Below are positions 7,898-28,005 of a stretch of 28,655 nt of DNA, piece after piece. The first letter of the stretch is position 1; the number at the start of each line of letters is the position of its first letter. Below the pieces are notes generated by a model that was given only the letters and a program-made list of their open reading frames with translations, made no database searches and was not told the origin of the DNA. The DNA comes from Oehlia diaphana. Lineage: Eukaryota > Glomeromycota > Glomeromycetes > Glomerales > Glomeraceae. The position numbers were made by a program, and so were the translations under genes. The DNA is taken from contig QZLH01000678.1 in assembly GCA_003833135.1 (NCBI GenBank), positions 29,449 to 58,103 of the forward strand, given 5' to 3'.

Positions 7898-9038
7898 AGT
7901 AGTGGCGGAAAAAAATGGCACTTAGTTTTTTTTATTTAATTTTATAAGGAAGTGCTTAATCAATGTAGAAATTAATATATAATCAATTAAAATGTATACT
8001 TTAAGTTTACTTAAAGCTTTGAAATATAATAGCTTAATAAATTTTTTTATAAATTTGAAATTTTTGTTAAAAAAATTAAATGCCAAATTTAAGGCGATTA
8101 AAAATATCTGAACGCCATTTTTAAATAAAATTAAGAAGAAATTCACATTCTAAACATATTTTTGACTCTTAAGAAAAACTGTTTGTCTGACCATGAAATA
8201 TATACTATTAAACTTTTATGGTTATTAGTTTATTACTTACTGATATATTGAGAAAAATATAAATTGAATTATATTTACACAACTGCTTATATGTTAAAAT
8301 TAAATTAAGAAATTTATACATTCTAAATGTACTTTTGACCCTTAAATAAAATTGTTCGTCTGGTTATGAAATATATAACGTTAAATTTTCGTTAAAATTT
8401 GTTTGATACTTACGGAGATATTAAGCAAAACATAATAAAATTATTTTAAATTATACTTGCTTTTTTTGAAAAATTATTTTATTTACATTTTGTTTAATAT
8501 CTTGGTGAGTATCAAACCAATTATTATGAAAATTGAATAGTATATATTTCATAATCAGACGAATAACTTTGTTTAAGGGTCAAAGGTATGTTTAGAATAT
8601 AGATGTTTCTTAATTTATTTTAAGAAGACATTCGGATCTAGTATTTAATTTATATGTAAAATTTATAAAACAAGAAATTTTTTTAAATTTTCATTACTTT
8701 TTTATATAAAAGAATTAAAAAAAACTTTTTATAATATTTATAATGGATTAATAAATAATTTTATAAGATTATTTATTATAATTTTTAATAAAAATATTTA
8801 AAATTTGTTTTAAATTCGCTTTATATTTATTAAAGTCTTTTCTTCTCATTTTACTTAAATTTCAAAATTTTTTTTTAAAAAATTAAACAATATTTTATCA
8901 AATATTATTAAGTAAATTTATTTACTATATATTTAAGAATATATGTACAAAATTTCAGATCATTTAAGCTATTTTTTAAAGTTTTTTATTGATTATAAAA
9001 TTAAAGAATAAAAGTGCCAGTTTTTTCCGCCACTACTG
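7898..9038. mobile_element. 1,141-bp non-autonomous TA-flanked DNA transposon
   Basis: The left end CAGTAGTGGCGGAAAAAA-TGGCACTT (7898 on) and the right end read inverted from 9038 match for ~26 bases with about one difference, and similarity continues loosely to ~50 bases (TTTAATTTTATAA). TA flanks both sides (7896-7897, 9039-9040), the target duplication of Tc1/mariner-type elements. The interior is very AT-rich and encodes no transposase. It contains two direct and one inverted copy of a ~130-bp block. Removing the element plus one TA gives a continuous codon series in the host gene. It is therefore a real insertion and probably recent, given the well-matched ends. Confidence 0.88.
8124..8624. 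repeat. Internal direct and inverted repeats of the transposon
   Basis: A ~135-bp block (key words acattctaaa, tttgacccttaa, tcgtctg-ttatgaaatatata, gtttgatactta, gatatta) occurs at 8124-8257 and 8298-8434 in direct order. It occurs inverted at 8484-8624. The second and third copies face each other around ~50 bases and could form a long cruciform or hairpin RNA. Confidence 0.8.
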
Positions 9039-9039
9039 T

Positions 9040-10269
9040 ACATCTATTCCAAAAAAGTCAGTTAAACATTCTGAACCATTACAACAAGATGCATCTTTAC
9101 TTTCAAAAAAAACAATTAAATCTGAACAACTAGATTTATCTAAAAAAAATATTAAATTTACTAAATTCTGTTACGATATATTTCATGAACTTGAAAATGA
9201 ATCTTATGCTAATTTATTTTCTGAAAAGAATATTAAAAATAAGGTTATAAAGCATCCAATGGACCTACTTACTATAAAATTAAAATTAGAAAATAATCAA
9301 TACTCAAGTTTAAAAGAATTTGAAAAAGATATTCGTTTAATGTTTCGTAATTGTTATACATATAATGATGTTAAAAGTAAAGAATATTGTTCAGGTGAAA
9401 AATTAGAATCTATTTTTAATGAAAAATGGAATGAAAAAATTATTCTTCAAGATAGACAAACAAGAGAACTGAAAAGAATAAGAGATAATGATACTGATGA
9501 TGGTGCAGATCAATTTTGGAAGAAACAAAGACAAATTTTAGAACAAAATAAAAATAATTTAGTATATAGACAGGTTATTAATGATGCACTTCTTGTTGCT
9601 TCAGCATATGAAAGCCTTGTTGTAGGTAATATTATACCTTTTATTGAAATTTTAAAGACCTTTCTATTAACAAGATCAAGGATGTCTTTATCTTCAGCAA
9701 ATGAATCCATGCTTCAGGCAATTGTTGAAAGTCTTCTACCATTAAAATATCGTATTCCAGAGCTTTCATTAGTAATGGATGGTAAAAAGCTAAAGGGATC
9801 AGGTCGCTTTGGATATTCAGATATTTTTGTTTTGAAAGGAATAGGAGATAATTATATTAGTTTAGAATTAAAATATATACCATTAACTGGTTTAATAAAA
9901 AATCAGAAAGTTAAATATGGTGCAAATGAATTAGAAAAATTAGACAAAATCCTTGAAAAGGAAGATGAAGAAATTTTATTAAAAAGACCATATACATATT
10001 GGTCTAAAGAGTATAAAAGAACAAACCAAACAACTATAGGTGAGGTATTGAATGGTGGTATAAGTCAACTGAAATCATATATGAATACAATCTCAAAAGG
10101 AAGGGTTGCTGATTACTTTAGCTCAGGAATATTTGATAAACGTGTTAAAGTAGTTGAATCAAATCCTAATAAATTGAAAGGATTTGTCATCTTAGTAATT
10201 GGTTTCCAACGTATATTATGGAAACCTGTTGATGAAGTAATATCAAATTATACATATAATATAATTTAA
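9040..10269 (+). CDS. 3' part of the split gene: bromodomain plus PD-(D/E)XK nuclease-like domain
   Basis: Open from inside the transposon to a TAA at 10267-10269. The first ATG is deep in the bromodomain (HPMDLL), so this part lacks its own start and belongs with 7306-7897. A lysine-rich linker is followed by a bromodomain at ~9160-9435: FCYDIFHELE, HPMDLLTIKLKLEN, YSSLKEFEKDIRLMFRNC and YTYND, whose Asn is the expected acetyl-lysine contact. The C-terminal half has a restriction-endonuclease-like core: GSGRFGYSDIFVLKG, then LELKY (D...ExK pattern), followed by GGISQLKSYMNTI and KGFVILVIGFQ. The nuclease metal ligands appear intact. Bromodomains read acetylated histones. A reader joined to a nuclease-like domain suggests chromatin targeting of DNA cleavage, or a domesticated or effector-like protein; this is inference. 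Full ancestral length is ~530 residues. Confidence 0.72.
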   Translation, partial: TSIPKKSVKHSEPLQQDASLLSKKTIKSEQLDLSKKNIKFTKFCYDIFHELENESYANLFSEKNIKNKVIKHPMDLLTIKLKLENNQYSSLKEFEKDIRLMFRNCYTYNDVKSKEYCSGEKLESIFNEKWNEKIILQDRQTRELKRIRDNDTDDGADQFWKKQRQILEQNKNNLVYRQVINDALLVASAYESLVVGNIIPFIEILKTFLLTRSRMSLSSANESMLQAIVESLLPLKYRIPELSLVMDGKKLKGSGRFGYSDIFVLKGIGDNYISLELKYIPLTGLIKNQKVKYGANELEKLDKILEKEDEEILLKRPYTYWSKEYKRTNQTTIGEVLNGGISQLKSYMNTISKGRVADYFSSGIFDKRVKVVESNPNKLKGFVILVIGFQRILWKPVDEVISNYTYNII

Positions 10270-18187: not shown

Positions 18188-18648
18188 GGGTAATCCCCCG
18201 GAGCGTGTCACTCATTAAATATGTGATTAACTATTTTAAACTATTTAACTATTTTAAACTAAAATTAGAGATTTCCAGAAATAAATAAACGAAGTTAAGA
18301 TTTATAAACTCGGCCAGTCACTCGCAATTTTCAATTAGTATAATTAGTATGAAGGAAATCAATTTAATTAACAATTTGGTTTTGCCACCTTTTCACGTGA
18401 TTCGATTAAATTAGCATGACGTAAGTATCGATCATCTCTTATTCTAACGTTGTTTTCGTTGTTTTTATTAATTTTTTTTTTTTGTAGGTGCTTTCTTATC
18501 TTGACTTTGGGGCTTCTGGTAATTTTTTTTTTAACATTCATATTTTTTTTGTTAATTAACATTAACTCTCTCTTTAATCCTTTCAGCTTTTAATGGCTTT
18601 AGATTTTGGTATCAGGGTCCAAGTAAATGATAAGTTAAAACACTTTGG
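18188..18648. other. Spacer without a supported gene
   Basis: A minus-strand open frame of 64 codons (18368-18562) is Lys/Asn/Arg-rich and driven by T-runs. It shows no recognisable domain and is not called. Confidence 0.35.
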
Positions 18649-19560
18649 TTGGGATTTTTTTTTGTGATTTCATATTCAATTTCATTTCTTTATTTCGTTT
18701 TGGGCTTCACCTTTTTTGTTTCATTTTTCACTTCATCTTTTATCACCCTTACATCCCTTATTGTTTCTTTTCATCGTCCTTTCACCTTTCATCGTTCTTT
18801 TCATTCCTCTTTCATTTCTAATTATTCTTTTCATTCCCCTTTCATTTTCCATCATTCTTTTTATTCTCCTTTCGTTCGTCATCATTCTTTTTATCTCCTT
18901 TCGTCCTTTATCAATTTATTTATCATCTTTTCGTCTCCTATCACTCTTTTCCCTTTAATTCCCCATCATTCTTTACACCATACTTTGGTTCTTATCATTA
19001 TTTTCATTTATTCTTTCATCTTCCATCATTATTTCCATTCCCATTATCTTTTCGTCTCCTACCTTTCTTTTTGTCACCTTTTCATTTCTCATCGTTCTTT
19101 TTGCTTCCCTTTCATCCTTTATAATCATTTTTCATTTTCTTTTTATGTTTCTTCATCTTTATCATTTATGACCTTTTTTTTCGTTCCTTCTCCTTTCTTT
19201 CGTTTCTCATTATTACCTCTTCTCCTTTCTTTTGATCCCCATCATCATCTCTCATCATCATCTTTTCTCCTTCCTTTTGATCCCATCATCATCTCTCATC
19301 ATCATCTCCTCTCCTTTCTTTTGATCTCTATATTCATCTCTTCCCTTTCTCATCATCCTTCCTCTACTTTCTTTTGTTCATCATCATCCTTCTCTCTTTT
19401 TTCGATTCCCTTTTATCCATTTATTCTCCCTTAATCTCTTTTCACACCTATTCCTTTCTTTTCTTTCCTTTCTTACTTTACTTTATCCCTTTTTACATCT
19501 TTTCATTATTTATTATGTTTTTTATTTTTTACCATTATTTCTTTTTTATTACATTTTTTT
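18649..19560 (+). repeat. ~0.9-kb polypyrimidine tract with degenerate ~30-bp repeats
   Basis: The plus strand is almost entirely C and T, with recurring catcattctttt, tcctttcatt and cttttgatccc words. Loose units of ~30 bp occur near 18780-18900 and of ~50-60 bp near 19205-19330. The 261-codon open frame (18649-19434) is an artefact of the lack of purines: its product is only Phe/Ser/His/Leu/Ile. The opposite strand is GA-rich. Confidence 0.85.
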
Positions 19561-19932: not shown

Positions 19933-20345
19933 TCATTTAACAAATAATTCATTATTTACCATAGGAAGCAATCTGCTGGTGTATACGGTCTCTGAATGTA
20001 TTTTGAGCTTTGATAGCTCCTTTATCGTACTATTATTTTTATCAGCTTTGCTCCATACATCATCACCTTCAAAAATACCAATCAACCATTTCTCTATTTC
20101 GCTTACAATATTTGCAATATTTGGCCTTTCATTTTGATTTTCATGCCAGCATTTTTGCATCAGCTCTTTATAACATTCAGGGGTTCCTTCGATGATTTCT
20201 GGATGAGATCCATCAGACCATCACAGATCTGAAGTGCAAGGTTGAGATTATGTGGAATGTTAGGGAAAGGTCGATGACCTGAACATGATTATTCCAAAAC
20301 TATAAATATCAGACGTCTGGGTGAACGGAGTAGATTGTCTTAGGA
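19933..20345 (-). pseudogene. Kinase C-lobe relic with frameshift, 5' part lost
   Basis: Reading from 20345 leftward: LRQSTPFTQTSDIYSFGIIM (activation-segment end and helix F), then FPNIPHNLNLALQICDGL, a frame break near 20205-20220 caused by a short insertion, then YKELMQKCWHENQNERPN (helix I arginine region) and a 60-residue tail ending at 19933. About ten residues after GIIM are also missing. HRD, DFG and the whole N-lobe are absent. The break at 20345 coincides with a 58-bp palindrome formed from kinase sequence. It belongs to a different subgroup from the copy at 3473-5127 (PFTQTSD versus DYTQASD). Confidence 0.82.
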
Positions 20346-20388
20346 TATAATAATATATTAATATATTATTATGTCCTAAGACAATCTA
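20331..20388. repeat. 58-bp near-perfect palindrome at the kinase breakpoint
   Basis: The left half tagattgtcttaggatataa... and the right half ...tcctaagacaatcta are inverted copies over 29 bases with one mismatch. The outer 15 bases of the left arm are kinase coding sequence, so the right arm is an inverted copy of that coding end. Confidence 0.93.
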
Positions 20389-20408
20389 CTTATACCAGAC
20401 TAATATGT

Positions 20409-20540
20409 CCTAGGACGTTATAATCTATTAATTAATACGTTCTAGGACATTATAATCTATTAATTAATACGTTCTAAGACATTATAATCCATTAATTAAT
20501 ACGTTTTAGGACATTATAATCTATTGACTAATATGTCCTA
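20409..20540. repeat. 32-bp tandem repeat, about four copies
   Basis: The word taatctatt and its variants start at 20421, 20453, 20485 and 20517, a strict 32-base period. Each unit holds gt(t)ctaggac and the self-complementary attaattaat. The array begins just after the palindrome and shares its tcctaagac word. Confidence 0.92.
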
Positions 20541-20654
20541 AAGATGGATCTGCTTTCCCTCTCTGTGACTTATTGGTCAGTAAATATGGATGAGGTGCGC
20601 GCCTATTTTGTTGCCTTTCAAAATACTGAAGTGGTGTAAAAAAAGGTGACGGGT

Positions 20655-20897
20655 GGTGCAGTAAATTCGTGATTAATTTTGGCCAGTATTATACTATAAT
20701 TTTGGCCGATCTTTTAGGAATGTGATTTTAGGTTCCAGCTTAGCAACACGATAGCGCCATAATGGTGTCATAGAACCGTCATGGAACTGGCAGGGAACTA
20801 GAATGGTTCTATTAGTTGGTGCCAAATCATTATATCTAAAGTTTTGGCCAAATTTGTGGAATAGTTCTGGCTGAAATGATTGTTAATTTACTGCACC
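20655..20897. mobile_element. MITE-like element with GGTGCAGTAAATT ends
   Basis: ggtgcagtaaatt at 20655 recurs inverted (aatttactgcacc) ending at 20897. Similarity extends loosely inward (tgattaattttggccag versus aatcatttcagccag). A second inverted end (aatttactgcgcc) lies at 21166-21178, so the element may be nested or partly duplicated. No coding capacity. Confidence 0.6.
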
Positions 20898-21137
20898 TAA
20901 AGTTTTTAATCAATCATGTGATACTTTACGCATATATTATTTGGAGAATCATATGATAGTGATCCCAGAGGGCTTGGCGTCAGATGACATTCAGCACAGT
21001 GTCAATTCTATTCAAATTATTGTATCCAAAAATCTGGCCAAAATTATGGTATAGTGTTGACCGAAATGATTGCATATATTGTCAGGAGAATCATATGATA
21101 GTGATTCCAGAGGGCTTAGAATCAGATGACATTCAGC
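20823..21137 (+). repeat. Diverged direct duplication, one copy 48 bp shorter
   Basis: Copy 1 is 20823-20995 and copy 2 is 21013-21137. Shared words include ctggc-gaaatgattg and ggagaatcatatgatagtga. The offset is 190 before and 142 after position 20883. Copy 2 therefore lacks the 48 bases 20883-20930, which include one transposon end. Confidence 0.85.
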
Positions 21138-21448
21138 GAAAATATGTGCAATATTAGGTGATTGTAATTTACTGCGCCTTGAGTTTCAGGCACTTTCTCA
21201 GCACTTTCTCACAACTTTCGAGGGACCATGTCCGAGTTATTTGACTACTGGGATGCCAGCCGATTTTTAGGCACATGATTTGAGAGATTGAAGCCAGTAC
21301 TATTTGATTGTTAAAAAATGCGTCATCATGCAATCCTATTTGCTACCGGTATATTGGTGGGATGTTGTAAGTACTTCCGAGACCCGATCATAGTCTAAAC
21401 TGGGTTGAGGTAGTGTGTATGCTAATTTTTTTGAGTGTTACTAGTGAT
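21138..21448. other. Spacer before the hairpin cluster
   Basis: Less AT-rich than average. No gene is seen; probably transposon debris. Confidence 0.35.
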
Positions 21449-21500
21449 AGGGTAGTCTTCTTCCATTTTTATATTATATAATTTTGAAGAAGACTACCCT
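21449..21500. repeat. Hairpin 1: 15-bp perfect arms, 22-base spacer
   Basis: Arms agggtagtcttcttc (21449-21463) and gaagaagactaccct (21486-21500) pair perfectly. The 22-base spacer is pure A/T except the first base. It is preceded by ctagtgat. Decayed half-copies with the same lead-in lie at ~21713-21740 and ~21855-21900. Confidence 0.95.
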
Positions 21501-21537
21501 AGATGTCATATCATACCCGAGTACATGACTAGAAAAC

Positions 21538-21585
21538 TGAAGTCTTCTTCCAATATTTTATATAAAGATTCTGAAGAAGACTTCA
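21538..21585. repeat. Hairpin 2: 13-bp perfect arms, 22-base spacer
   Basis: Arms tgaagtcttcttc and gaagaagacttca; the spacer is caatattttatataaagatt plus ct. Preceded by ctagaaaac. After one mismatch four more A/T pairs extend the stem. Confidence 0.95.
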
Positions 21586-21981
21586 TTTTTAGATACATAT
21601 CCGCTTTTCTTTCATTTACGATTTGCTACTCAGGTCTAAATATCTAATATTTGTTGTATATATCTGGATCTATACTAGCTTACTCTAAATACCTACATAT
21701 ACCCAGATACATACTAGTAATAGGGTAGTCTTATTCCAAGTATGATGATTTTACGTCCCAAAGTTCAAAATATTTAAGCGCATTTATATTGTATTTCTGG
21801 CATGTTTCCAGCCATATTTGAGTCAAAGGAAATATACCACTTACCTGAATTCATACTAGTGATAGGGTAGCCAAGTGCCAATATTTCTGAAGAAGCCTTT
21901 ATATCATACCCGGATGCATATCTAGGAAGGATAAGTCACAGAGGCTATATCCACATATACCTGAGTACATATCTAGAAAAG

Positions 21982-22029
21982 TGTAGCCTTCTGCCAATAT
22001 TTTATATAATGATTACGCAGAAGGCTACA
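21982..22029. repeat. Hairpin 3: arms with compensatory changes
   Basis: Arms tgtagccttctgc and gcagaaggctaca pair perfectly around 22 bases (caatattttatataatgatt plus ac). Compared with hairpin 2, three positions differ and each is matched on the other arm. Preceded by atatctagaaaag. Confidence 0.95.
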
Positions 22030-22066
22030 AAGTGTCCACATACATCCGAATACATATCTAGAAAAG

Positions 22067-22114
22067 TGAAGTCTTCTTCCAATATTTTATGTAAAGATTA
22101 CGAAGAAGACTTCA
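22067..22114. repeat. Hairpin 4: 13-bp perfect arms, 22-base spacer
   Basis: Arms are identical to hairpin 2 and the spacer is caatattttatgtaaagatt plus ac. Preceded by atatctagaaaag. It ends ~140 bases before the start of the primase-helicase reading frame. Confidence 0.95.
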
Positions 22115-22253
22115 TTTTTAGATGTATATCTGAATGTCTTTCTTTTATGATTTGCTGATTAAGTTTGCTATTCCTTCTTTTTTGCATCTATCAAAAAAAT
22201 ATTTAAACATTTCGAAAGTATATTGGAGTATATAAAGTTTTACCTACTGACAA

Positions 22254-25200
22254 CATGCATACAGGCAGCATACCCCAACTACTTTTAACCAAAGTCGTAT
22301 AACTGGCCCTCTCACCCACTACAACGGTGCTGACCCTGATGAATATTTAAGTAACTCAAGCAGTTGTACTGATAATAGATCTGACTTTGGGTCAGATAAT
22401 TATAATAATTATGAGTCTAATTAGGAGTCAAATAATGAAGAAGCTCTCTGCGTCTCAACCAGTATTACCAAAACTCCATCAATTCAACTACCAAATAAAG
22501 AAGAGCAAAAGGTTAATACATCATATACTTTAAGGCAGAAAAAGTTTAATGATAAATTTTCTCCTAAGGATTTGATAAATGAAATTCGAAAAATAGCCTC
22601 TTCACCGCCTAGAGATATGTCAAATGATAAGGGTTCATTATATTGTCTTTCTATCTATTCATTCCTTTTTCTGAATGAAAAAGGGTCTAATTTATATAAT
22701 GCTTATGATCGGGATGAAGTGAAAAATAAATTGGTTATTAAAATTAACCAAGATGGTAATCGGGCCCTGAAGTTTTCTGTTGCAAATGATATTTCTGAAG
22801 TATATGGCTTGCCTGGGATCAATGAATGTATTAATGGTCAAAAACCTTTAAGAGCTGTGATCGATATAGATGCTTTACAAGAAGATATGGAAGCAAATGA
22901 AATTAAAGCACAAGAAGTATTCATTTGAATCTTTTTATTTTTCATAAGAGCTTTGTATCGAATTCTTGATTGTAGCTGGGAAGATATTCTCAGAGGATTG
23001 GTAATCGCTACATCATCCGACCCTAGCAAGTGTAGCTACCATATTTTATATGCACTGGCCCTTCTCATTGATCATCACGAACTCAAAGCATTTACTGAAT
23101 TAGTATATACCATATCTGGTGAAAAATTTAGCAAGTATATTGATCGAGAGTTACCTGATCAGAATTTTAATTTTCACCTAATTGGTTCAGCAAAAAAAGG
23201 TCATGTGAAGCGCATCCTGTTATCTTCAATAACTAATGGCTGGAATGAACTTGATCTTGCTAGAATTCAACTGCCTTCTAATTTAGGACTTGAAGTGAGA
23301 CCTAGAATGCTTAGTATAGAAAAAAATAATAATCTGCTAAGAATATTTGTGAGTTTGGATATATTACAAAAATACGCAGAATTAGTTTTACAAAAGCATT
23401 CCAGCTGTCTTAGGGATTGGACTATCGAAGAAAAGGACTCAGGAAACTTCATATATTTTAACCAAAAAGCTCCATTAGAATGTCTACTTTGCAAACGTAT
23501 ACATGACAAGGATCAGTGATGGTTTGGCCATGTATATACTAGTAGTGGTGAATTCATCATAAAATGTTTTTAGCAAAATAGTGATGAATGCGGGGAAGTT
23601 TTGAATGTGACCCATCTATTGCAGAAAAAATTCAGCAAGAAAATAAAAATTTATCTCCCACCTCTCACAGGATAAAAGGTCCAGGTTTTCCTAAAGTCTT
23701 CGTAAAAATGCCATCTTGGGTTAAGTATAATAAAACCTTTACAGCGACAGAAACATATAAGGAGAGATATGTAAGACTATTACCCAATGAAGGTGATATT
23801 TATGTGGGTTCACTTTGGGAAACAGGAAAAACATATGCTCTAGAGCATCTTACTATATCTAAGAATGTGAATTTGCAAGTATTATCTACGTGCCACTCCT
23901 ATTCGAATGCTGTTACTACCAGACTTAATCTTAAGTCATACTGCAATATCGATGGTAATATAAATCTACCTGATCATAAGAGGGTAGTATGCCAGATAGA
24001 AAGCTTACATCATATTACCAATAATTGTAAATGTAATAAAAAATGCAAATGCTCTCCAATCTAATACGATTTGTGGCTTGATAAAATAGTATCTATAATT
24101 GCTCAGGCATAAAGTCATTTGGCGGAACAATTGATAGAAAAATTGTATAAACTAATTCAAGAAGTGAGGCGTATTATCATCATGAATAATGATCTTACCG
24201 ATCTTAATATCAAATGGATAAAGTCTCTTCGTAAGGATAGACCATTCGCTATTATTTATAATACTTACCAGCCTCAGAATGGTAAAACATTCCACTTGGC
24301 TCCTAATAAAGAAACTGTGTTAGCCGAACTCTAGGATTGGGCCAAGAAAATATCTTCACTACCTTTTGAGAATTGGAAAAGTGCTTCACTTATCTGTCAT
24401 CTCAAAAAGGACATACAAGGGATTGTTCGTGCTCTTAAGACTAGTTTTCCAGAATTACGAATCAAGGAATATCATGGTAAATCTAATTTGGTAGAAAAGG
24501 CTCATAACTTCAGCAACGTAGAAGAATCATGGAAAGATGTAGACCTAGTTGCCTATACTAGTACTCTAAAGATAGGAGTGTCTTACACCAATCCTAAGTT
24601 TGAACAAGCATTCTGCATCTTTAACAGTTATATAGAAATGAATGCTAAAATGAATCAGATGTTATTCTACATGTGATGTATTAATGATTATATATGTCAT
24701 ATCGAGCAAAGATCTTCTAACGTTCCATTATAGAAAAGGGGCTATTTCAGTGGTTATTAAATGCTAAACGTGAATGTCTCCTCTGAGAACTTCAGAATAG
24801 AGGAGTATTTCCAGATATAGACTCTATTATCTGGAGTAAGGATGTACTGACTGTTCAATTGTGAGTAGCCTATATGTTGGAAAAATTCTGTTCCCGGTGT
24901 TTATTTAGTTGGAGAATGGTCAATTTTCTTAGAGAGGTGGGTATGATAATTTCCATCATAGAACCCATTCCTAAGTCTGAAGAAAATATATTATCGCAAG
25001 TGGTAAAAGCAAATTGCACTATTGTTAAAGCAGAGGAGATATCAGATATATCTAACGCTACTGTTGTCAATCACGAAACTGCTGAATTTTTAGAGAATAA
25101 GCCAAAGAAGACCTTAGAAGAAATGCGATCTCTAGACTGGCATCATATTGTAGACTATTATGAGATTTCGCCTGAATCATTGACCGAAGATTTTATCTTG

Positions 25201-25876
25201 AAGTACAGAAATTATAATCATATGAAATGGTTCAGAACTTATAGATAATTATGAGATGCGAGTACTAACAATGAAATGGCCATTGAAGCTATCACTTGTA
25301 AAGATTACAGGAAAGACAGACTTACAACTACCATCCGAGCTGAGAGGCATCGAATTTGTCTGGAGTTACTAAGAAATTGTACACCTGCTATAGATATCAA
25401 CGATAGAATATGATATAAAGCTAATGATGTTAAAACATGTATTGATTCTCCTGAATCAATATCATGTCTCCAGAATTTAGTTTCCAAAATGGCTAGAGTA
25501 TTTGACAATACAGATGCATCACGTAGTGCTAAAAAATCAGGATTAAGAACAGTTCGAGCAAAACTCGGGTTACTGAATTCAGCACTATATGCAATATATG
25601 GATTGAAATTTAAGGCTGTGGATAAGAATCAAAGACATTATCATCTGGTTGGTTTGTTTGATAGTAAGAGTGCATCCAAGTTTCCTTCATATCAAACAGG
25701 AGAAGAAATTTATTGGGAAAATGGTAAAGATATTCGGTATAGTTATAGTAAGCTCTTACCTGATGAATTATTAATGGGAAATCACTTGGGGTAAACAAAC
25801 TAAAGACATCCCTAGTTCTAATATTAATACTGCGCCAATTGCAGAAGAAATTCAAGATTTATTTGATATGTGTTAG
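22254..25876 (+). pseudogene. Decayed primase (AEP type) and origin-binding-protein-like helicase
   Basis: A ~1,200-codon coding trace on one strand. It starts with a polar, acidic ~100-residue leader (22254-22560). A primase-like part follows, with a D-x-D motif (AVIDIDA, ~22855) and SSDPSKCSYHIL (~23013), matching the catalytic and phosphate-contact motifs of archaeo-eukaryotic primases. CLLCKRIH (~23482) is a likely zinc site, as in herpes/pox-type primases. A helicase part then shows ETGKT in a Walker A context (~23820), where the usual first Gly of GTGKT is replaced, and CNCKCNKKCKC-like cysteines near 24027. IIIMNNDLTDLNIKWI lies near 24170, VAYTSTLKIGVSYTNPKFE near 24550, and a long C-terminal part runs to a TAG at 25874. 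The helicase resembles origin-binding proteins of the UL9 type. In-frame stops lie at 22422, 22926, 23517, 23571, 24062, 24110, 24332, 24674, 24784, 24862, 25246, 25252 and 25411, with frame shifts near 23600, 24735 and 25785. Not functional. Confidence 0.8.
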
Positions 25877-25918
25877 AATACTAATCTATTATAAAACAAT
25901 GTATATATACTTTTGAGA

Positions 25919-25966
25919 TGAAGTCTTCTTCCATATTTTATATAATAATTTCTGAAGAAGACTTCA
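25919..25966. repeat. Hairpin 5, downstream of the primase-helicase
   Basis: Arms tgaagtcttcttc and gaagaagacttca, identical to hairpins 2 and 4, around 22 bases (catattttatataataattt plus ct). It begins 43 bases after the end of the coding trace. A half-decayed copy follows at ~25990-26035 (acagaaggcttca only) and another at ~26090-26115 (aggcttctgcc only). Confidence 0.95.
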
Positions 25967-26217
25967 TTACATCCTGGCCAATGATTAGTACCTGGAATTA
26001 TATTTTTTATATAATAATTCCACAGAAGGCTTCATCCATCAGTATATATTATTAAAAAAATATCTTCATTCTTTGTACTTCTGAGTTATAGGCTTCTGCC
26101 AAATTTATATAATAACTGACTAATGAGAAATAATATATTTTTTCTTACTCCTCGGTAGATAATTCAGAAGGGATGTTACCAAAGGTAATAATTCTGGGTT
26201 GAAGTGAAACGAGGGCC

Positions 26218-26501: not shown

Positions 26502-27179
26502 ATGCAATTTTCAGTGCTTCGTACAGCCAGTAATGTGAGTAGTAACCCTCCTACAAATAGTACCATTTCTCTTGATATGTGGGCAAGTAACACGATTCAT
26601 GTAAGTATTTTAGGATATAAAAGCCTTTTTCACTTTTAATTTTATAATAAAATATGTATTTAAATTATTCGGTATTAAGTTAAGTCATAAATGACTTTTC
26701 ATACTAACACTACGGATATGTTAACACAGCTGATAGATAAAGTTCACGAAAAAATATATAACTCCAAATCTAATCGCATGATAGTTATAAATGGGCTAGT
26801 ATATCGTAAATTGCTATTCGAAGTCTATATACATTGGAGAGAAGAAAGGCTTTTGATTCTGCCTTTACATGAATTACCAATACTAAGAAGATATCTTTCT
26901 TTCATTTCCTACCGTATTTGGGGTATCATATCAGAAAAAAGTTTACTAGCAGTGGTTAACGAAAAAATAAGCCTATTGCAGATTTTACTTAAAGCTAATT
27001 GGCACAATTTTACTTTATATCAACTATTAAAATTATGCTGAAAGCGTAGAGAGACAAAAGTTTGGAGAAATGACATATTTATGAAATTCCTCCATCATCC
27101 GAATCTAACTCCTTCAAAATATAGACCAAGTACTTTATATGATGCATTTACCAAGACAAATATTTTAGAACCAGAATAA
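26502..27179 (+). pseudogene. Two-exon gene relic of unknown function
   Basis: Exon 1 (26502-26600) starts MQFSVLRTASNVSS and ends at a strong GTAAGT donor. An acceptor acacag (ending 26729) continues in phase 0 with LIDKVHEKIYNSKSNRMIVI. Alternatively, translation begins at the ATG at 26691 without this intron. The frame runs to a TGA at 27039 and then stays open with coding-like text (KRRETKVWRNDIF, HHPNLTPSKYRPSTLYDAF) to a TAA at 27177. The TGA therefore looks like a disabling change. Aromatic- and leucine-rich middle part (VYRKLLFEVYIHWREERLL); no domain recognised. It lies ~620 bases after the primase-helicase trace on the same strand and could be a companion gene of that element. Confidence 0.42.
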
Positions 27180-27495
27180 ATATTAGCTCTAGTGTGAGCA
27201 TTTTACTAAATGTGATTATAATACAAATTTATTCATAACCTTGGAATGGGTTCCATGATTATATATTTTTTTTTTGCATATCCTATCTACTCACAATTTT
27301 CAAATATATATAAAAGATATCCCAGCTGGAACTCATGGCCTCATAGAGAACCCGCAATAAGTTATAATAATCTTTTTGTCCACCGACCATGGTGTAATGA
27401 ATTGTTGGAATAAAAATTTTCAAATTGAACTTTTTTGTACATAATATAAAATTAGTACGTTTTAATATTCTTGACTATAGTGTCATAAAAACAAT
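27180..27495. other. Spacer between two relics
   Basis: AT-rich. Nothing recognised. Confidence 0.35.
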
Positions 27496-27852
27496 ATGGC
27501 AAAAGTAGCTACAGATTTCATGAAACACCATAAATGGACCTCTGAAACTCTATCATCTGAACTAGCTAAATACATAGAGAAAATTAACAAAAGTTTGAAA
27601 GATGATCACAAGGTAAGATCCAATGCTAAAACGCATTTTTGACAATTAGGGCTTACTAAAAAACAAGTAGAAGTTTTCATTCCTATTTGACCTTCTGGAA
27701 AGCGTGAAGAAGGTAGGGATACTGTTAATAAAATTGCCCAAGAAATTGTGGATAATAATTATTTGTCTGAGAAAATAAAACAAATTTCATATGATTTGGG
27801 TAGTTTCACACCTAATCCAGTCACAAGAAGTTCCCGGCTTACTTTATTGTGA
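27496..27852 (+). pseudogene. Relic of an unknown gene with three in-frame TGA codons
   Basis: From the ATG at 27496 the frame reads MAKVATDFMKHHKWTSETL, then IEKINKSLKDDHK, TGA at 27640, LGLTKKQVEVF, TGA at 27688, KREEGRDTVNKIAQEIVDNN, and TGA at 27850. The text between the stops is coherent and coding-like. A further stretch in another frame (27864-28010: DRGADHSKREATK) may be its continuation after a frameshift. All three stops are TGA, as expected if CGA codons lost their CpG. Family unknown. A GTAAGA donor-like word at 27613 has no sensible partner. Confidence 0.45.
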
Positions 27853-28005
27853 AAAAAGTTACAGGATCGTGGAGCTGATCATTCCAAAAGAGAAGCGACC
27901 AAAATTCCACACATTACTACAGAATCGAATGAAATTCAAGCACACCAGCATATATTTGACATTAAGAAATTATATAGTGCGAAAAGTTGCGCAAGTTTAC
28001 ACATC

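Follow-up and report, generated by a model that had tools for sequence, protein, structure and literature searches.

The 28,655-nucleotide stretch of Oehlia diaphana DNA analysed here (assembly GCA_003833135.1, contig QZLH01000678.1, positions 29,449 to 58,103 of the forward strand; at its full length referred to as the window) holds five hairpins, each formed by two inverted arms around an AT-rich spacer, set about a decayed gene, gene A, with the traces of a predicted primase and a UL9-like helicase. Gene A lies on the forward strand (22255..25876), where its coding trace is interrupted by stops and can be read in pieces only, its start and stop being placed by eye. Hairpins 1 to 4 precede it, the set ending about 135 bp before the start, and hairpin 5 follows about 40 bp past the stop, all being listed on the same strand. 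Arm lengths are 16 bp in hairpin 1 (21448..21501), 13 bp in hairpin 3 (21982..22029), 14 bp in hairpin 5 (25918..25967), and 18 bp with one mismatch in both hairpin 2 (21533..21590) and hairpin 4 (22062..22119); in hairpin 3 both arms depart jointly from those of the other hairpins. The first-pass annotation of this DNA had described four intact hairpins upstream and one downstream of the coding trace, each with a spacer of exactly 22 bases, and both statements hold: the sequence from 20300 to 26100 contains five hairpins with spacer 22, and 100 dinucleotide-preserving shuffles of it contained none of this class at any spacer from 18 to 26. The arms are inverted as described there, but measure 13 to 18 bp instead of 13 to 15 bp. 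Decayed copies can be read, by eye only, near 21720, 21865, 26000 and 26090.

The gene A protein

The helicase part of gene A is, as judged from sequence, of the UL9 type. The window piece matches Herpes_ori_bp (PF02399) at E 8.2e-4 with 18 bits, under the cut-off of 20, and an intact copy elsewhere in the genome does so at E 4.4e-16 with 58.6 bits, above the Pfam cut-off. The family is matched by all 13 aligned relatives, and when a profile of these 13 was compared with solved structures, the best four were UL9, the herpes origin-binding protein (E 2.7e-5 to 9.1e-5). The primase half of the first-pass description stands on different ground. D106, D108, C312, C315 and H319 are invariant across five proteins, including two distant metagenome ones, and we take the DxD, sxH and Cys/His zinc motifs to be those of an archaeo-eukaryotic (herpes/pox-like) primase; the sxH histidine is not invariant, being N in protein P0003. 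No Pfam primase match was found in the gene A family itself, and one distant metagenome relative matches Herpes_UL52 below the cut-off (E 0.0094); the putative primase is assigned from conserved residues and not from a family match.

A homologue search, in which only the candidates with most shared words were scored, returned 101 hits, and those with a readable organism name belong to the Glomeromycotina; two distant and a few closer homologues have no organism on record. An open relative encoded in the same genome aligns over 96% of its length, at 100% identity, with a protein of Rhizophagus clarus (P0001). Public records from several Glomeromycotina genera name the family just 'hypothetical' or 'replication origin-binding'.

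Linkage of hairpins and gene A across the genome

The 108.8-Mb genome, in which the window belongs to contig C674 (other contigs are numbered likewise), was the one genome covered by the hairpin searches. A strict hairpin pattern, which permitted spacers of 16 to 26 and included a TATA-like spacer core among its search patterns, was found at 40 places, against 0 in the reversed control; the spacer is 22 in 37 of these and 21 in the other three. A genome search with the gene A piece 22929-23519 gives 33 matches, and one with the open 1110-aa frame of C649 gives 43 on 28 contigs, 20 of which carry close copies, defined by at least 57% identity in the best piece. This copy number agrees with the mobile element proposed in the first-pass annotation. 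By coordinates, a gene A match is found no more than about 1 kb from 23 of the 40 strict hairpins, which occupy 12 of the 20 close-copy contigs, a number that rises to 15 once the weaker hairpins in fetched stretches are included (C40, C771 and C55 being added); the stretches of two further close-copy contigs, C1497 and C1274, lay outside this inspection. Hairpins occur on both sides of gene A in five copies (C649, C674, C1537, C1073 and C737), and upstream only in C454, whose gene A end is missing. In gene-bearing copies the orientation of the spacer relative to gene A is identical on both sides. The co-occurrence of the arm-22-arm pattern with primase-helicase copies, which the first-pass annotation had proposed to examine, is thus borne out in this genome: the hairpins are neither scattered without a link to the gene nor missing from its other copies as a whole.

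The remaining 17 strict hairpins are on 13 contigs in which no protein match to gene A was found. Searching with the DNA of 20599-22928, the counts from which are lower bounds, found the leader of the element (the sequence preceding the hairpins, see below) outside the array on eight of them (C59, C105, C349, C376, C1276, C1523, C1593 and C1664), with DNA of the first part of gene A also retained on C349 and C376. Longer array stretches are present on C207 and C221 and pieces of only 120-195 bp on C222 and C33, and for C1411 no element piece was among the matches listed. These loci look like truncated or gene-less derivatives. Five of them (C1593, C1664, C1276, C1523 and C59) combine leader and hairpins with no gene A match, and are possible non-autonomous derivatives. 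As a separate observation, loci L049, L051 and L052 (on C222, C55 and C40) contain arrays of palindromic AAACCGTTTCGCAAC-like units, seemingly unrelated to the element.

The two arms of a hairpin change together. When sites in 19 fetched stretches were selected by the spacer motif only, 44 of 47 hits had at least 9 of the 13 arm positions paired, and the mean pairing of these 44 was 11.98, compared to 9.47 with partners shuffled and a maximum of 10.39 in 2000 shuffles, from which the three hits outside the hairpin class were omitted. One arm position is occupied by T-A, G-C or C-G and is paired in 34 of 35 cases, in a set itself selected by pairing. Taken over the genome, the linkage counts indicate that the hairpins travel with the primase-helicase gene.

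We inspected eight loci with more distant copies of gene A (29-50% identity to the window piece 22929-23519), and four of these (C1104, C1144, C1327 and C75) have hairpins of their own. The gene A copies there are 33-40% identical to the window piece and 35-37% identical over the first pieces of the 1110-aa frame. Their hairpins have arms beginning with GGTAG or TGGTA and AT-rich spacers of 33-44 bp, longer than 22, the core of which resembles TATATATTATT at three loci and is TATATAATT in C1104, and they stand at a similar place, some 690-870 bp ahead of the same codon; shuffles gave 0.05-0.1 such hairpins per locus. The other four loci (C1230, C668, C795 and C1283) showed no such hairpin, having unrelated inverted repeats or none.

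Element boundaries and the recombinase-like gene

The unit proposed in the first-pass annotation, 21449-25966, is too short: the element extends from 20329 to about 27960, its right end not being placed, and includes a terminal palindrome and a tyrosine-recombinase-like (YR) gene that had been missed. Homology between copies begins at the left terminal palindrome (20329..20390, no strand assigned), whose arms are 97% complementary. It is followed on the forward strand by 32-bp tandem repeats with GTCCTAGGAC-like palindromic half-sites (20401..20540) and by the leader (20599..21447), pieces of which are common to many copies. Downstream of gene A, and again on the forward strand, lie first the trace of gene C (26691..27210), coding for an uncharacterised protein family of about 170 aa for which Pfam gave nothing above cut-off and PHROG no match, and then the N-terminal part of a YR relic of type 1 (27490..27960), 77% identical over 157 residues to an open 369-aa copy in C649.

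Palindromes of this kind, 46-64 bp long, are found at one end of the element only, and the homology of copies starts there beside unrelated DNA. The left end is visible in ten copies, with the whole palindrome in nine, not all of them perfect, and half of it in C454. In the window it interrupts and directly adjoins a kinase-like gene, recognised by eye, and in C1073 it interrupts a gene with an RRM domain. Two types can be told apart, type 1 with GTCCTAGGAC-like repeats (the window, C649, C1073 and C991) and type 2 with TACCACnnTATAATCT-like repeats (C1537, C737, C40, C55, C1507 and C454). Tandem half-sites follow the left palindrome in the window (20329-20390) and at L037, L039, L042, L044, L051 and L052, and the type 2 palindrome is also seen at sites without a listed element piece.

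In all 12 contigs that have both genes, YR follows gene A on the same strand; three of these contigs (C75, C1144 and C1230) carry distant gene A copies. The YR family is also present on 23 contigs where gene A has no match. In an alignment of 14 proteins, R201 is conserved in 12, R303 and Y343 in at least 90% and H314 in all, an assignment made by eye on the basis of R-K-(H/K)xxR-(H/W)-Y, which we take to be the catalytic set of tyrosine recombinases. The YR protein has no Pfam family and no sequence relative in the PDB, its AlphaFold model has a predicted local distance difference test (pLDDT) value of 59, and Cre and protelomerases are among weak structural hits. The same neighbours probably recur in other species. 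In R. irregularis C2, contigs with a reported length of 8309 bases carry a YR protein (locus tag 796938) and a gene A protein (796941); in R. diaphanus, a gene A protein (773621) and a YR relative (773623) come from contigs given as 37100 bases, and gene A and gene C proteins from contigs given as 20358 bases. From the equal sizes, and in the first two cases also from the tags, we infer that the members of each pair share a contig.

Recombinase type and left-end type agree in all five typed copies, three of type 1 and two of type 2, the recombinase of C737 being typed from the start of the gene only. The helicase tree mixes the types, grouping C649 (type 1) with C1537 (type 2) and C1073 (type 1) with C771 (type 2), with supports of 0.94 and 0.98, and the tree of gene C joins C1073 to C1150 (type 2) with support 1.0; the switch point lies near 27449 of the window. 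These five copies provide a lead that recombinase and terminal repeats may change jointly, against the helicase tree.

Three copies have protease-like and F-box-LRR genes after the recombinase gene (L053 at 8170-9533, and L038 and L054 beyond 10853), as cargo or as a preferred neighbourhood. Elsewhere in the window we note a low-complexity open frame with Ser/Phe/His-rich repeats and a strongly skewed strand (18634-19434) and a 429-aa open frame, by eye bromodomain-like and then nuclease-like (8980-10269).

Proposed origins, alternatives and known systems

We lean towards the view that the hairpins are likely replication origins of a multi-copy mobile element integrated in the fungal chromosome. 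The element is best read as an integrated mobile replicon whose origin logic resembles that of UL9 systems and in which no capsid gene is recognised. Its own predicted primase-helicase would bind both inverted arms, which we regard as probable protein sites, and would distort or open the AT-rich spacer, by analogy with the herpes simplex virus (HSV) origin OriS; the predicted primase domain would then prime DNA synthesis, using a host polymerase, and the predicted tyrosine recombinase would integrate and excise the element, presumably by acting at the left palindrome and half-site repeats. The window copy is decayed and therefore cannot be expected to function. Capsid or packaging genes were absent from the open reading frames scanned, a subset of those of an element whose right end is not placed, one scan of viral_contigs found no relative, and no such element is described in the literature searched.

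Several observations speak against hairpins acting as origins of this kind. The Herpes_ori_bp match spans only profile positions 69-215 of 820, the helicase stretch, and Pfam does not recognise the C-terminal origin-binding domain of UL9 in the open gene A frame. The 1110-aa frame also lacks the RVKNL motif, named in the available text of PMC12543377 for sequence-specific DNA binding by the UL9 C-terminus; a diverged UL9-like C-terminal DNA-binding domain is possible. The AlphaFold models are poor for gene A (pLDDT 40) and also for YR (59, as given above), and no DNA polymerase was recognised in the open reading frames scanned. No hairpin was seen near the gene A fragments inspected on C101, C607 and C1264, and hairpins are one-sided in C1150 (downstream only) and C1233 (upstream only). 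The arms differ even within one element, which is odd for a single strict binding site. The arm-pairing shuffle ignores relatedness, and tests of this type are inflated by related copies. Matched arm changes can also result from template-switch repair of imperfect palindromes.

The most serious alternative, to which we give a distinctly smaller but real chance, is that the hairpins regulate gene A, as dyad operators upstream and as a 3'-end RNA hairpin downstream. Their closeness to the start and stop in the window would suit such a role, as would the TATA-like core of the spacer, the frequency of which is no independent evidence because the core belonged to the search patterns. However, the hairpins share one form and orientation upstream and downstream of the gene, with as many as four to an array, and the inner 14 arm pairs mismatch as 9 G-T versus 15 A-C, so that wobble pairs, which a sense RNA stem would tolerate, are not in excess. 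A further speculation is that the hairpins serve the YR protein, which is encoded within the same element, as accessory or resolution sites, given that recombinases use inverted sites. This we consider improbable, since one hairpin class occurs in elements of either YR type and either terminal repeat, recombinase core sites have spacers of 6-8 bp and not 22, and such a role would better suit the terminal palindromes and the arrays of half-sites.

It is very improbable, in our estimate, that the hairpins are small self-multiplying palindromic repeats incidentally inside the element. The 17 strict hairpins without an adjoining gene A match would fit this, as would the short pieces on C222 and C33 and the lack of any listed piece on C1411, but further element sequence is present on 10 of the 13 gene-less contigs, more than half of the strict hairpins adjoin gene A, and distant gene A copies show different hairpins at a similar place. 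We attach equally little probability to the idea that the copies are dispersed remnants of a large DNA virus that had integrated. Large DNA viruses do have UL9-like helicases joined to primases. R. irregularis holds a 1.5-Mb asfarvirus-like region according to the accessible part of PMC10640383; that same text, on the other hand, gives the D5 primase/helicase and superfamily II helicase markers as undetected in five strains. Moreover, all ten visible left ends begin at the palindrome or its half, beside unrelated DNA, and the viral_contigs scan was negative.

Returning to the integrated replicon, a bolder proposal, which we put forward only tentatively and regard as rather doubtful, is that it represents a new class of eukaryotic integrative replicon, capsid-less and with UL9-type origins, in which an integration module (the recombinase with the matching terminal palindrome and half-site repeats) is swapped independently of the replication module, and whose recombinase may resolve the terminal palindrome into a hairpin end in the manner of a protelomerase. 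If the origin reading is true, a UL9-type origin system would exist in fungi, outside any virus particle, and would provide a mechanism for the sparsely named Glomeromycotina gene family. If recombinase and terminal repeats do change jointly, the integration site of such elements becomes testable, and the same layout with different arms beside distant gene copies permits a comparative study of the co-evolution of protein and site.

Cryptons, which are likewise fungal DNA elements with a tyrosine recombinase, code for the recombinase alone; we rejected this assignment because in 12 of 12 contigs with both genes the recombinase is preceded by a helicase gene of the same strand, the element adding replication genes and hairpin arrays. 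Starships have a DUF3435 captain as their first gene, and were rejected since the one YR protein scanned had no DUF3435 match and YR follows gene A in the element. The closest known systems also include those of protelomerases (telomere resolvases), such as TelA or phage N15. Cryptons have been reported from R. irregularis, about two-thirds of whose transposable elements were unclassified before recent curation, as stated in the accessible sections of PMC11075540, and for this latter reason elements of the present kind could have been overlooked. In HSV OriS, as far as the available text of PMC12543377 goes, OBP, the origin-binding protein, binds inverted boxes that flank an AT-rich spacer, the spacer affects complex formation, and a 6-bp deletion there abolishes replication. 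The fungal element is similar in its superfamily 2 helicase of the same Pfam family and its inverted sites round an AT-rich spacer, and differs in carrying a predicted primase within the helicase protein itself and no recognised C-terminal domain of UL9, as well as in its arms, its spacer of 22, its several hairpins per element and its many copies in a fungal genome. Among elements using tyrosine recombinases and primase-helicases, the nearest are, on the portion of PMC12220804 available, the cryptophyte Polinton-like viruses, integrated DNA elements some of which have a tyrosine recombinase and some a fusion of primase and superfamily 2 helicase (Prim-S2H); that portion does not state that both occur in one element, nor does it mention origin-like hairpins or a one-sided terminal palindrome, features of the fungal element. 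Polinton-like viruses are capsid-coding, and in the fungal element, with its predicted primase-helicase, hairpins and recombinase-like gene, no capsid gene was recognised.

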